DNA of 39,424 nucleotides from Euzebyales bacterium. Lineage in GTDB: Bacteria > Actinomycetota > Nitriliruptoria > Euzebyales > JAHELV01. Both the position numbers and the translations under genes were made by a program. The notes under the pieces were generated by a model. It worked only from the letters and a program-made list of their open reading frames with translations. It was not told where the DNA came from and made no database searches. Positions within the stretch are counted from its first letter, which is position 1. Every line of letters starts with the position of its first letter. The stretch covers positions 1 through 39,424 of the forward strand of contig DATHVN010000185.1 in NCBI GenBank assembly GCA_035461305.1, in the 5' to 3' direction. Below are positions 33,482 through 38,002 of the stretch, piece after piece.

Positions 33482-34345
33482 TCACTGCAGCGGGTTGCGC
33501 CCCGGCGCCGAGTCGGTCAGGTCGCTGATCTCAGGCCACGACAGGGCGATCTCCTCGACCGATGGCACGTGGTCGAACTGCACACCCCGGGCCTGCATGT
33601 ACGCGATGCGGGCGTAGTGGCCGCCACTGGCGAGCGTGATCACGCCCGTGTCGCTGCACTCCTCGGACGCGAGGTGCACGACGACCGGCGACACATACGC
33701 CGGGTCCAGGTGGAGCCGTGCGTCGTCGGGGATGACGTCGGAGGTCATGCGCGTGTCCGCCAGCGGTGCGACCGCGTTGGCGGTGATGTTGTAGCGGGCG
33801 CCCTCGACGGCGAGGGTGTTGATCAGCCCGACCATGCCCATCTTCGCGGCGCCGTAGTTCGCCTGCCCGAAGTTGCCGAACAGGCCCGATGTCGAGGTCG
33901 TCACGATGACCCGCCCGAACTGCTGCTCACGCATGTGGGGCCACGCCGCGCGCGTCACGCTGAACGCGCCGTACAGATGGACCCGTAGCACAGCGTCCCA
34001 CTGCTCCGCGGTCATCTTGTGGAAGGACTTGTCACGCAGGATGCCGGCATTGTTGACGACGGCGTCGACCTGCCCGAACGCGTTGAGGGCCGTGGCGACC
34101 ACGCGCTTGCCGCCCTCCACGGTGGCGACGTTGTCGTAGTTGGCGACGGCCTCGCCGCCCGCGTCGGTGATCTCGCACACCACGCCGTCGGCCATCTCGG
34201 AGCCGAAGCCAGAGCCGTCGCGTTTGCCGCCCAGATCGTTCACGACCACACGGGCGCCTTCGCGGGCGAACAGCAACGCGTGCTGGCGTCCCAGTCCGCC
34301 GCCTGCACCCGTGATGACGACGACCCTGCCTTTGACTCCAGCCAT
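33482..34345 (-). CDS. Short-chain dehydrogenase/reductase (HSD17B4/FabG-like)
   Basis: A probable NAD(P)-dependent 3-hydroxyacyl-CoA-type dehydrogenase. The 287-residue product has the cofactor motif TGAGGGLGRQHAL and VVNDLGG, an NNAG motif (98-101), the catalytic S151-T-S153 region and Y164xxxK168. The VNDLGG and GSGFGSEMADGVV insertion and the length fit the dehydrogenase domain of peroxisomal multifunctional enzyme type 2, a group found in actinobacterial fatty-acid and sterol catabolism. Its upstream gap has dyads that could bind a TetR-like repressor. The substrate is not determined. Confidence 0.9.
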   Translation of the reverse strand: MAGVKGRVVVITGAGGGLGRQHALLFAREGARVVVNDLGGKRDGSGFGSEMADGVVCEITDAGGEAVANYDNVATVEGGKRVVATALNAFGQVDAVVNNAGILRDKSFHKMTAEQWDAVLRVHLYGAFSVTRAAWPHMREQQFGRVIVTTSTSGLFGNFGQANYGAAKMGMVGLINTLAVEGARYNITANAVAPLADTRMTSDVIPDDARLHLDPAYVSPVVVHLASEECSDTGVITLASGGHYARIAYMQARGVQFDHVPSVEEIALSWPEISDLTDSAPGRNPLQ

Positions 34346-34638: not shown

Positions 34639-35190
34639 GTGCGGGACGACGAGCTTCACGTGTTCCTCGGTGACGCGCGTGCCCAGGCCGCGGTCGACAT
34701 GCGCCGCCAGCGCCGCTGGCTGGTCCGGCAGCTCGACGAGGATCGGACCTTCGAGGACGTCTGCGCCCGCGCCATGCGTGAGGGCGCTCCGGTCGACGTG
34801 CTGGTGGCGAGTGGTCGGAGCCACCGTGGGCGCGTCCTCGCTGCGCACAGCGGCCTCGTCGCCGTCGCCGTCGCCGATGGCGGCACGGTATACATCACAG
34901 GGGCGGCCGTCGTCGGCGTCCGCGTCCGCCCGGATGCGACCGCCGCGGATCACCCGCCGGAGACGGTCCCCGGCCACGCGCCGACGACCGCCCCGTCCGC
35001 AGCCGTGGGCGCAACGTTCAGCGACGTCGCGCGCGAGCTCGCCGACGGTCAAGCCTTGGTCGGGGTCGGCACCGTCGACGGTCGGCTGCACCGGGGGCGC
35101 ATCAACGGCGTCGGTCGCGACGTGCTGCGCCTCGACGACGGGATGCACCTTCGCCTGGACATGGTGACCGAGGTGATCGCGGTCACATGA
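34639..35190 (+). CDS. Hypothetical protein beside the Tad-like cluster
   Basis: The start is uncertain. GTG 34639 (183 residues) has weak GGGG upstream; ATG 34561 (leaderless) and ATG 34591 are also in frame. A helical N-terminal part is predicted (QAAVDMRRQRRWLVRQLDEDRTFEDVCARAM). Two similar beta-rich modules follow: VDVLVASGRSHRGRVLAAHSG and ALVGVGTVDGRLHRGRINGVG. Each module has a G-R-x-H-R-G-R motif, so it may be an internal duplication, perhaps RNA-binding or Sm-like. I do not recognise the family. It converges on the HTH gene with 2 bases between. Confidence 0.65.
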   Translation: MRDDELHVFLGDARAQAAVDMRRQRRWLVRQLDEDRTFEDVCARAMREGAPVDVLVASGRSHRGRVLAAHSGLVAVAVADGGTVYITGAAVVGVRVRPDATAADHPPETVPGHAPTTAPSAAVGATFSDVARELADGQALVGVGTVDGRLHRGRINGVGRDVLRLDDGMHLRLDMVTEVIAVT

Positions 35191-35192
35191 GG

Positions 35193-35426
35193 TCAGTCGA
35201 CGTTGGACCGCGCAGGGTCGGGATACAGGTGCTCGAGGGATCCGGGCACGATGCGGCTGCGTTCGATGAACGCGTTGACATCGCGTTCCTGCAGACGGAT
35301 GACGCGCCCGAACTTGTAGGCCGCGATCTCGCCCTCGTCGATCAGGCGGTACAGCGTTCGCGGGGTGATGCCCAGATGGCGGGCCGCCGCCGCCGTGCTA
35401 AGCCAGGTGATTTCTTGTTGCGCCAT
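35193..35426 (-). CDS. BldC-like helix-turn-helix protein (MerR/excisionase fold)
   Basis: The 77-residue protein is little more than a winged HTH: WLSTAAAARHLGITPRTLYR, then IDEGEIAAYKFGRVIRL and DVNAFIERSRI. This is the excisionase/BldC type that controls development in Streptomyces. Start ATG 35426 follows a TATCAT -10-like element, with no ribosome-binding site, so it may be leaderless. It lies between the hypothetical gene and the divergent TadZ/Ssd-like gene and may regulate them. An excisionase role is unlikely, since no integrase or phage gene is nearby. Confidence 0.85.
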   Translation of the reverse strand: MAQQEITWLSTAAAARHLGITPRTLYRLIDEGEIAAYKFGRVIRLQERDVNAFIERSRIVPGSLEHLYPDPARSNVD

Positions 35427-35489
35427 CGCCCGCCATGATACACCGGGGGCCCCGAATTGCACCGCGATGTAGACAACGGTAAGGGTCTG

Positions 35490-36785
35490 ATGCGACAGCG
35501 ACAGACCCTGCTCGGGTTGGTCAGCCGCACCGCCTCGTGGCCGCAACGGCTCGAGGCGTGGTCGACGTCCGCTGCGGTCCCGTTCACCGTCTCCTACTGC
35601 CAGTCCGTCGCCCACCTGCGCGCACGCCTCGAGGAGGGCAGCGCGCACCAGGGCGTCCTGCTCGACGGCGACCTGTCCTTCGTCGATCGCGACCTGCTGA
35701 CCGACGTCATGAGCGCCGGTGGCGTTGCCGTCGTGATCGAGGGCCCTCGCCGCAGACGGCCGTGGGACACACTGGGCGCGGCGGCCGCCCTGCCCGCGGA
35801 CTTCGACCAGCGCCAACTGCTCGACGCGCTACGCGGCGTCCTCGAGCCCGCAGTGCCGGCACGTCTCGAGCACCCGTTGGCGCCGGTCGTGGCCGTCACG
35901 GGACCCGGAGGGACTGGTGCCAGCGTCAGCGCGATCGCGCTGTCGCAGGGCCTGGCGGCAGCGCGCAGGCGCGTGCTCCTGGCGGACTGCTGCCTGCACG
36001 CTGAGCAGGCCATGCTGCACAACGCATATGGCTCGCAGCCTGACATCGTCGACCTCGTCGAGCTGCACGCCGAACGCACGCCGGAGCAGCGCGAGATGCG
36101 CCAGCTTGCCGTCGGCGTCGTCGAACGCGGGTACTACCTGCTGCCGGGCATCGCCCGCGCCCGCCACTGGTCCCGCATCAGGGGCGGATCGCTCGAGGCG
36201 GCGCTGCAATCGGTCCGGGCCGCGTTCGACGTCGTGGTTGCCGACGTCGACGCCGACGTCGAAGGCGAGGCGCAGGGCGGCTCGATAGAGGTCGAGGAGC
36301 GCAACGTCCTGGCGCGGACGGTCCTGGCCCGGGCCGCGGCGGTCATGGTCGTCGGCCAGCCCACGATGAAGGGTGTCTACGCCATGGTCCGCGTGCTGGT
36401 GGAGCTCCTCGAGTTGGGTATCGCCGGCGACCGGGTGCTGCCGGTCATCAACCAGGCGGTGGCGGACAGGACGGTTCGCGCCGATCTGAGCCGCGCCGTG
36501 CGCCACCTGCTGGACGGCGCCGCGGCGGGCGGCGGGGTGCCGTCCGCGGCCGCCGTGGGGCCGGCGCTCTTCGCGCCGCCCGTGTCCCTCGAGGAGCACC
36601 TGCGCGAGCGCGACGCGCTGGATGACGCATGGCCGGCCCTGCTCGCCGGCGCCGTCACCGCGGTGCTCGACCGGGCCCCTGCGGCACCTCGGCCCTACGG
36701 GCCACCCGAGCCCGTTGCGGCGGGATCACTGGGTCATTGGCGCAACGGACCAGGTGCGGACGACCCCACGGGCGCCACCCCGTGA
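35490..36785 (+). CDS. TadZ/CpaE/Ssd-like MinD-family protein with degenerate P-loop
   Basis: The start chosen is ATG 35490, because AAGGG lies 5 bases upstream; it gives 431 residues. An N-terminal receiver-like part (about 1-120: VSYCQSVAHLRARLEEGSAHQ, GVLLDGDLSF) is followed by a MinD/ParA fold. The P-loop reads GPGGTGAS (138-145): Pro replaces the first Lys and Ala the ATP-binding Lys of KGGVGKT, so ATP use is doubtful. LLADCCLHAEQAM and FDVVVADVDAD retain the fold. Such proteins place Flp pilus machines (TadZ) or act in septum site choice (Ssd). The TadA motor that normally follows is missing. Two TadB/TadC-like genes follow instead. Confidence 0.8.
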   Translation: MRQRQTLLGLVSRTASWPQRLEAWSTSAAVPFTVSYCQSVAHLRARLEEGSAHQGVLLDGDLSFVDRDLLTDVMSAGGVAVVIEGPRRRRPWDTLGAAAALPADFDQRQLLDALRGVLEPAVPARLEHPLAPVVAVTGPGGTGASVSAIALSQGLAAARRRVLLADCCLHAEQAMLHNAYGSQPDIVDLVELHAERTPEQREMRQLAVGVVERGYYLLPGIARARHWSRIRGGSLEAALQSVRAAFDVVVADVDADVEGEAQGGSIEVEERNVLARTVLARAAAVMVVGQPTMKGVYAMVRVLVELLELGIAGDRVLPVINQAVADRTVRADLSRAVRHLLDGAAAGGGVPSAAAVGPALFAPPVSLEEHLRERDALDDAWPALLAGAVTAVLDRAPAAPRPYGPPEPVAAGSLGHWRNGPGADDPTGATP

Positions 36786-36801
36786 CGGTCGGGGCTCCGG
36801 C

Positions 36802-37428
36802 ATGATCGCACTCCTCGCGCTGGTGGTCGTCGGCGTCGTGGCGATCACCGACCACCGCCGTCGCACGGGCCCGGTGGCGCCGACCCTGTGGCTGTGGCTG
36901 CTCGCCGAGGTCGAGTCGCACGTCGACGGGACGGCGGTCGATCCCTGTGACGTCGTGGTCGGCGTGTGCCTCCACGGTCCGCCGCCGGTCCGGTGCGCCG
37001 CCGAGGACGCGGTCCGGGCCCATGGCGGTGCGCCACGCGCCGTGCTGCTCGGCGGGCTCTGCGACCGTCTCGCGACCGCTCCGGGCGACAGGTTGTGCGC
37101 GACCGCCGCCGCGGCTGCCGCCGGCGGGGTCGATCCGGCGGCGGCCCTCGCACGGCTGCGGGTCGGCGAGGTTGCGTCAGCCGACGCCACATGCAGGGCG
37201 CGCGGCACGCTGCGCCTCGGCACCGCAGCGTGTTGGCTGCTGTTGAGTCCGCTGGGACTGGTCGGCTCGGGCGTCATCACCGGTGGCGCGGCGTGGGTCG
37301 TCGCGGCTGGTGCCGTCGCCGCGTGGTGGGCCGGTAGTGCGTGGGTCCGCGCCGCCGTGGCCGACGCACGCGTGCTCACGGGCTCGTCGGTCCACGCGCT
37401 CCTCAGCGCCGGGTCCGCGGCGACGTGA
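36802..37428 (+). CDS. TadB-like membrane protein (T2SSF-related)
   Basis: The 208-residue product starts at ATG 36802, 16 bases after the TadZ/Ssd-like stop, with GGGG upstream. A first span is at about 2-16. A central region (about 50-135) contains GVDPAAALARLRVGEVASADAT, resembling the Ala-rich helical module of the GspF/TadB family. Two spans follow at about 138-157 and 162-183. It is shorter than typical TadB (about 280-320). Assignment rests on position and weak pattern, so a TadB-like role is inference. The next gene starts 2 bases after its stop. Confidence 0.55.
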   Translation: MIALLALVVVGVVAITDHRRRTGPVAPTLWLWLLAEVESHVDGTAVDPCDVVVGVCLHGPPPVRCAAEDAVRAHGGAPRAVLLGGLCDRLATAPGDRLCATAAAAAAGGVDPAAALARLRVGEVASADATCRARGTLRLGTAACWLLLSPLGLVGSGVITGGAAWVVAAGAVAAWWAGSAWVRAAVADARVLTGSSVHALLSAGSAAT

Positions 37429-37429
37429 C

Positions 37430-38002
37430 GTGACGCCGCGACGCCCGACGGGCCTGGCCGGGCGGCTCGCGCCGCACGTGCCGCGGCGCTACGACCCGGG
37501 CATCTACGCCTGGTGGCCGCGGCGAGCGGGACGCTGGCCAGGCGTGCGCCGGCGCGTCCTTCCCGGCGGCTGCGGTTCCGCGGTCACGCGTGGCCGACGG
37601 CGCACCGCGCAGCTGGCGCCGATCGTCGAGCGCCTCGCGATGCTGCTCGTCGTCGGCCACGACCTGCGCGCCGCCGTGGAGCACGTGGTCGGCACGGGCC
37701 GTGGGCCGGTCGTAGGTGAGCTCGGACCGATCGCGGCCCAGCTGGCTCGCGGCGTGCCCGCTGCCACGGCCGTGCGGTCGTGGGCGCGGTGGGCGTCCTG
37801 CCCGCACGTCGCGCAGCTCGCCGCCGACCTGCGTGGCTGCGCTGGCGTCGTCGACGCCGCGGACGTGCTCGAGCGGCACGCCCGCCTTCTCCGTCGCCAG
37901 GTGCTCCGCGACCAGCTGCTCACGTTGCGCCAGCGGACCGCCGCCGTCTGGCTCGCGGCCATGGTCACCTGCGTGACGACGGCGGCCGTCGTCGCGACGT
38001 AG
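37430..38002 (+). CDS. TadC-like protein (T2SSF domain)
   Basis: The start is GTG 37430, giving 190 residues. Residues about 60-165 fit a type II secretion F domain: LAPIVERLAMLLVVGHDLRAA (amphipathic helix), then GPVVGELGPIAAQLARGVPAA, AVRSWARW and VLERHARLLRRQVLRDQLL. One span at about 171-189 ends the protein; typical TadC has more spans after the domain. The N-terminal 45 residues are basic. It follows the TadB-like gene with 1 base between, so the three genes form one operon. The inner-membrane platform of a Flp pilus is the nearest known role, but the motor and pilin are absent here. Confidence 0.65.
   Translation: MTPRRPTGLAGRLAPHVPRRYDPGIYAWWPRRAGRWPGVRRRVLPGGCGSAVTRGRRRTAQLAPIVERLAMLLVVGHDLRAAVEHVVGTGRGPVVGELGPIAAQLARGVPAATAVRSWARWASCPHVAQLAADLRGCAGVVDAADVLERHARLLRRQVLRDQLLTLRQRTAAVWLAAMVTCVTTAAVVAT

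Follow-up and report, generated by a model that had tools for sequence, protein, structure and literature searches.

The 39,424-nt contig DATHVN010000185.1 of an Euzebyales bacterium (assembly GCA_035461305.1; the whole contig is referred to as the window, and the genome as G000) carries a reduced locus of the Tad/Flp pilus type, in which a gene for a TadZ-like protein is followed by two short genes related to tadB and tadC. From left to right, the genes are arranged as a short-chain dehydrogenase/reductase (SDR) gene on the minus strand, a gene for a two-module protein on the plus strand, a helix-turn-helix (HTH) gene of the HTH_17 family on the minus strand, tadZ, mini-tadB and mini-tadC on the plus strand, and a Glu/Leu dehydrogenase-like gene, also on the plus strand. 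The tadZ gene (35490..36785, plus strand) encodes a 431-aa TadZ/CpaE-like protein of the MinD/ParA superfamily, which showed weak MinD/ParA matches in the Pfam and NCBIfam searches, shares 45% identity with the TadZ of full loci, and has a P-loop without the lysine. It is followed by mini-tadB (36802..37428, plus strand; 208 aa, as compared with about 294–319 aa in the relatives) and mini-tadC (37430..38002, plus strand; 190 aa, as compared with about 301 aa). The HTH_17 gene (35193..35426, minus strand) is divergent from tadZ, and encodes a 77-aa DNA-binding protein of the excisionase family (Pfam HTH_17, E=1.2e-14; TIGR01764). The preliminary description of this DNA had called it BldC-like; the models that it matched are those of HTH_17 and the excisionase family. 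A putative divergent promoter/operator region of 63 bp (35427..35489) lies between the two genes and is conserved in the four genomes compared here (G000–G003, designated the family). The gaps in the window are 16 bp between tadZ and mini-tadB and 1 bp between mini-tadB and mini-tadC. In the sister genomes, the former pair overlaps by 4 bp in three and the latter by 4 bp in two. The G+C content at the third codon position exceeds that at the second position (GC3 > GC2) in the operon genes, both here and in the sister genomes. All five genes, from that of the two-module protein to mini-tadC, are real coding sequences.

The identities of the two small membrane proteins were analyzed by profile comparison (hhalign) with the orthologous full-length proteins. 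Mini-TadB matched TadB (97.5%, E=7e-12) and not TadC, while mini-TadC matched TadC (97.6%, E=3e-12) and not TadB. The comparison with TadB ruled out that mini-TadB is an unrelated membrane protein. The alignments revealed that the N-terminal membrane segments are missing from both proteins. In the family searches, mini-TadC showed a weak T2SSF match (PF00482, E=9e-4), and mini-TadB had no match in Pfam and NCBIfam; for mini-TadB alone, neither these two databases nor Foldseek returned a firm result. AlphaFold2 models were built from alignments of three sequences for each protein. That of mini-TadC contains a six-helix domain (predicted local distance difference test score, pLDDT, of about 87), which together with one C-terminal membrane helix makes up the protein, and Foldseek related it to SpoIIIAB, EpsF, PilC and OutF with a probability of 1.00 and target-normalized template modeling (TM) scores of 0.69–0.78, with no E-value below 0.001. 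Mini-TadB was modeled as a similar helical bundle, of which the best F-domain match was SpoIIIAB with a probability of 0.72. In the predicted structures, the F-domain fold survives, clearly in mini-TadC and moderately in mini-TadB. Two glycines of the TadC F-domain, which are invariant in the relatives, are kept by mini-TadC in 4/4 family genomes, and the first F-domain glycine is gone from mini-TadB in three of the four. TadB and TadC form one platform that touches CpaF via the tips of the F-domains (PMC11300603). Judged from the profile and fold comparisons, the TadB plus TadC platform of a Tad/Flp system is still represented at this locus, but both proteins are truncated and most of the invariant residues have been lost.

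Relatives within the order and the class carry a full locus, designated type W, at which the HTH gene stands divergent from cpaB-tadZ-tadA-tadB-tadC-flp-tadE-tadE'-tadF. TadZ orthologs were found in 34 of 61 related genomes. In all four family genomes cpaB, tadA, flp, tadE, tadE' and tadF are gone, and the same reduced form, tadZ, mini-tadB and mini-tadC, remains, an agreement that goes beyond chance. No similarity to tadA, flp, tadE/F or prepilin peptidase was found at the locus of the family, and no remnants of the lost genes (tadA, flp) were seen there, because tadZ, tadB and tadC abut or overlap in succession and the next gene begins only about 0.1–0.15 kb beyond mini-tadC. The 63-bp region between the HTH gene and tadZ occupies the place of cpaB in the relatives. 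The loss and its clean edges are directly visible. The preliminary description of this DNA, which was made from the letters alone, had proposed a TadZ-like gene followed almost without gaps by small TadB- and TadC-like proteins, with TadA, Flp, TadE/F and the peptidase missing from the locus; both proposals are borne out by the gaps, the hhalign results and the searches. The two points that it had left for comparison, the conservation of the three-gene operon without tadA in related genomes and the F-domain fold of the small proteins, also came out in its favour, with the difference in clarity between the two proteins described above.

G005, a relative that has the full Tad locus, carries the genes to the left (DUF5318-like, penicillin-binding protein, GNAT and SDR) in the same order, and the chromosomal site is therefore the same. 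The W-type TadA, which is 69–85% identical among the other genomes, is absent from G000–G003 (best identity, 39%), where the remaining TadAs share 33–39% identity with it. Conversely, each of the six other TadZ-carrying genomes that were searched has the W-type tadA, intact or fragmented. In G030, an insert of about 36.5 kb (G030:C6:346496-383011; L041, L145, L146) interrupts the gene, and the tadA-proximal part of the insert contains phage-like DNA-metabolism genes; duplicated flanks of this insert were looked for and none were found. In G018 (contig C20, L038), tadZ and the W-type tadA are about 31 kb apart, and unrelated metabolic genes follow tadZ. The TadZ proteins of the family form one clade (100/100), which is nested in the class clade (100/98) and has a long stem (1.32 changes per column). 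The best explanation is a single reduction of a complete Tad locus prior to the divergence of the four family genomes, and there is good support for both the reduction and its maintenance. Misassembly was ruled out by the agreement of four separate genomes. Horizontal acquisition of a partial locus is disfavoured by the syntenic full locus in G005 and by the position of TadZ within the class clade.

The preliminary description had called the P-loop of TadZ dead. The lysine is indeed absent, but this is not specific to the reduced locus: the lysine-less P-loop, GPGGTGAS, is common to all 12 full-locus orthologs and is therefore ancestral to this TadZ family, and a lineage-specific loss of the lysine was ruled out by the same comparison. 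In the literature, TadZ is portrayed as an early hub at the pole, and its Walker A motif as atypical (PMC6668835).

The constraint on the individual genes was estimated by the Nei-Gojobori method between the four family genomes, as ratios of the nonsynonymous (dN) and synonymous (dS) rates. The HTH gene showed a dN/dS of about 0.03 (identity of 95–97% in the genus) and tadZ about 0.24–0.37, while tadC showed about 0.5–0.65 and tadB about 0.5–1.0, higher values that codon bias makes uncertain, with several tadB pairs having pN/pS confidence intervals that include 1. For comparison, the neighboring SDR and dehydrogenase genes showed about 0.13 and 0.15, respectively. Thus, tadZ is under clear purifying selection and the HTH gene under very strong purifying selection, whereas tadB and tadC are strongly relaxed. 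In the relatives, TadB and TadC are better conserved (62% mean identity) than TadZ (54%). In the family, the order is reversed (TadZ 66%, TadB 37% and TadC 42%), which is expected if the contact with the motor was lost and TadZ became the constrained part. Of the residues invariant in the class (12 relatives), 48/74 are kept in all four genomes for TadZ, as compared with 10/84 for TadB and 15/83 for TadC. The long stem and the present pattern are consistent with constraint that shifted once the other genes were lost and was then renewed on TadZ. All 12 open reading frames (ORFs; tadZ, tadB and tadC in four genomes) are open, and a neutral, substitution-only simulation, run 2000 times for each of three divergences, did not once (0/2000) leave both tadB and tadC open in the four lineages together. 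The frame loss and the lack of purifying selection that characterize a pseudogene cluster were not found, with tadB close to neutral in some pairs.

The HTH gene accompanies tadZ far beyond the family. Of the 61 relatives, 34 have the two genes and 27 have neither (HTH in 34/34 genomes with TadZ versus 0/27 without it), with a Fisher p value of 6e-18, which ignores kinship. Across the phylum (396 genomes), HTH was found in 31 of 32 TadZ genomes; in the exception, G303, tadZ lies 523 bp from the contig end. HTH without TadZ at the threshold was found in five genomes, two of which (G134, G355) have a divergent Tad locus next to it. In G035, the two genes are both present but on separate contigs, and the HTH gene has no Tad genes beside it. 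Within the 63-bp region of the four family genomes, the 20 bp adjoining the start of the HTH gene are identical, and TTGCAY..ATGTAnACnACGG is also conserved. HTH and TadZ without an adjacent tadA were also found in the distant genomes G403 and G359. In the former (L166), the HTH-tadZ pair is followed by a kinase-like gene, and in the latter (L157), it is preceded by cpaB; these may be independent motor-less cases. In distant Actinomycetota (L156, L160, L162, L164, L173), the HTH gene often stands beside a gene for a PhoH-like ATPase, and in L162 and L164 no TadZ was detected nearby.

A PF00437 search of G000 yielded two ATPases only, on contigs C157 and C96. The ATPase on C157 belongs to a TadZ-TadA-TadB/C locus adjoining a DEAH-type helicase, with its own TadZ-like and TadB/C genes, a neighborhood that we take to resemble the helicase/secretion neighborhood of mycobacteria. 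On the reverse strand of the same contig (L003, 10373-11185), a 270-aa protein reads as a TadE/TadG-like N-terminal segment joined to an M23-peptidase-like domain. The second ATPase belongs to a complete Tad locus, designated type X, which runs from C96 onto C236 and contains cpaB, tadZ (245 aa), tadA, tadB, tadC, a gene for a 63-aa protein resembling a pilin, and a tadF-like gene. The assembly breaks within tadB, in which C96 and C236 overlap. At the X locus of G001 and G002, the gene finder listed tadE genes and a LysM-type protein. A prepilin peptidase (PF01478) is encoded on C89, outside the window locus. PilB/PilT-like ATPases were found in G001 and G002 and not in G000 and G003, and type IVa pili are apparently variable within the genus.

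The two-module protein (34639..35190, plus strand; 183 aa) keeps its position beside the HTH gene and evolves fast, with 43–48% identity across the genus and a dN/dS of roughly 0.35–0.6. It had no family match in Pfam/NCBIfam, and was detectable beside the HTH gene in several relatives. By eye, it consists of two similar modules with the look of small beta-barrels. The SDR gene (33482..34345, minus strand), which has its counterpart in this place beside the full locus of G005, is the conserved left neighbor and serves as an anchor of the site outside the system. A ribosomal block, rpsF-ssb, lies near the W-type locus in G005 (L040, 18482-19001) and near the X-type locus in G002 (L141, 1-1504).

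The closest known system is the actinobacterial Tad/Flp (type IVc) pilus locus, with which the family shares the site and the orthologous tadZ, tadB and tadC beside a divergent HTH gene, but the family lacks cpaB, the motor ATPase, the pilin and tadE/E'/F, and its tadB and tadC are truncated. SpoIIIAB of sporulating Firmicutes, the best fold match of mini-TadC and the best F-domain match of mini-TadB, is likewise a short F-domain protein. It works beside the ATPase SpoIIIAA, whereas no cognate ATPase is left for the two mini proteins. Ssd presumably belongs to the helicase-neighborhood type of locus, which is represented on C157 in this genome, and the TadZ of the window is of another type. 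This septum site determining protein of Mycobacterium tuberculosis (Rv3660c; PMC3095998) is also an actinobacterial, MinD-related TadZ/CpaE-like protein, and tadZ is listed first among the M. tuberculosis Flp-assembly genes (PMC9531140). In Micrococcus luteus, a cpaB-tadZ-PAS kinase operon that lies outside the tad cluster has an HTH_17 gene divergent from it, mutations there affect com expression and transformation, deletion of cpaB lowers transformation 10^4-fold, and the HTH gene could not be deleted (PMC8467076). An excisionase-family HTH_17 gene divergent from a tadZ operon apart from tadA is thus common to both organisms, but M. luteus keeps cpaB, has the PAS kinase in place of tadB/C, and has a functional tad cluster elsewhere. 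A literature search of incomplete coverage found no described tad locus without tadA, and thus no conserved tadZ-tadB-tadC operon of this kind.

The best reading of these results, which we hold with about even confidence, is that the family has retained a TadZ scaffold linked to the HTH gene, together with membrane partners that are vestigial, in a pilus-independent role. TadZ, as a MinD/ParA-like localization hub without the catalytic lysine, would sit at a site in the cell, and the mini F-domain proteins, which would retain the helical F-domain and a membrane helix and no longer drive pilin assembly, may hold it at the membrane. Its role would be independent of the pilus motor: it may place another complex, or pass information on the envelope or the site to the HTH regulator. 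More tentatively, the HTH_17-linked TadZ is possibly part of a separable device, consisting of TadZ and HTH with optional CpaB or membrane anchors, which places or senses something, informs gene regulation, and persists after the loss of the pilus in several lineages of actinobacteria (the present family, and perhaps G403 and G359). Several points weigh against such a role. It would be a departure from the known function, because TadZ elsewhere is known as a hub of pilus assembly. The co-occurrence of HTH and TadZ is mostly co-inheritance of a linked block, as the two are unlinked only in G035 and perhaps G045. The HTH protein of M. luteus, which is likened to that of the window by family and gene arrangement, may not be its ortholog. 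Finally, the dN/dS of tadB is near 1 in the pairs with G003, which fits a slow decay of this gene.

Such a decay could extend to the whole locus, the pilus having been lost, the three genes drifting and tadZ decaying last. The truncation of mini-TadB and mini-TadC, the ratios of both genes with the tadB intervals that include 1, and the long stem branch of TadZ would agree with it. However, the intact ORFs, the simulation for tadB and tadC alone, the tadZ ratio of about 0.3, the close or overlapping spacing and the conserved promoter region that remain, and the GC3 of tadB and tadC, which is well above GC2, make this explanation unlikely. The preliminary description had left the choice between a reused reduced system and a relic; the reduced Tad locus is confirmed and reuse without the motor is the better reading, of which the cell-pole or division-site placement that it suggested would be one possible form, while a simple relic is disfavoured. 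The three proteins could instead act in trans as auxiliary parts, with the tadA of the X locus (C96/C236) or of the C157 locus. The genome does contain tadA, pilin and prepilin peptidase genes elsewhere, the two glycines kept by mini-TadC are presumably the two conserved glycines that have been placed at the CpaF contact (PMC11300603), and the cpaB-tadZ operon of M. luteus also lies outside its tad cluster (PMC8467076). The preliminary description had counted a tadA-flp locus elsewhere as a point against its proposal. The X locus, with tadA and pilin, is such a locus, but it has its own cpaB, tadZ, tadB and tadC and no need of the window genes, and the C157 locus is similarly equipped with TadZ-like and TadB/C genes. 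In addition, mini-TadB has lost most of the TadB-invariant residues, including the first F-domain glycine in three of the four genomes, and the remaining TadAs are distant from the lost W-type. Action in trans is therefore rather unlikely, and the retained TadZ-HTH module is favoured over both explanations.

Research on the Tad system sees TadZ as an accessory of pilus assembly, and a lineage without motor and pilin separates the role of TadZ itself from the pilus. The family is also a natural experiment on what F-domain proteins retain after the loss of TadA. The phylum-wide pairing of TadZ with a small DNA-binding protein agrees with the mutant data from M. luteus, and provides a testable lead on the control of Tad genes in some Actinomycetota. 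The maintenance of three intact genes in all four genomes, one for a positioning protein and two for shortened membrane proteins, suggests that they have a job with no need of a pilus.

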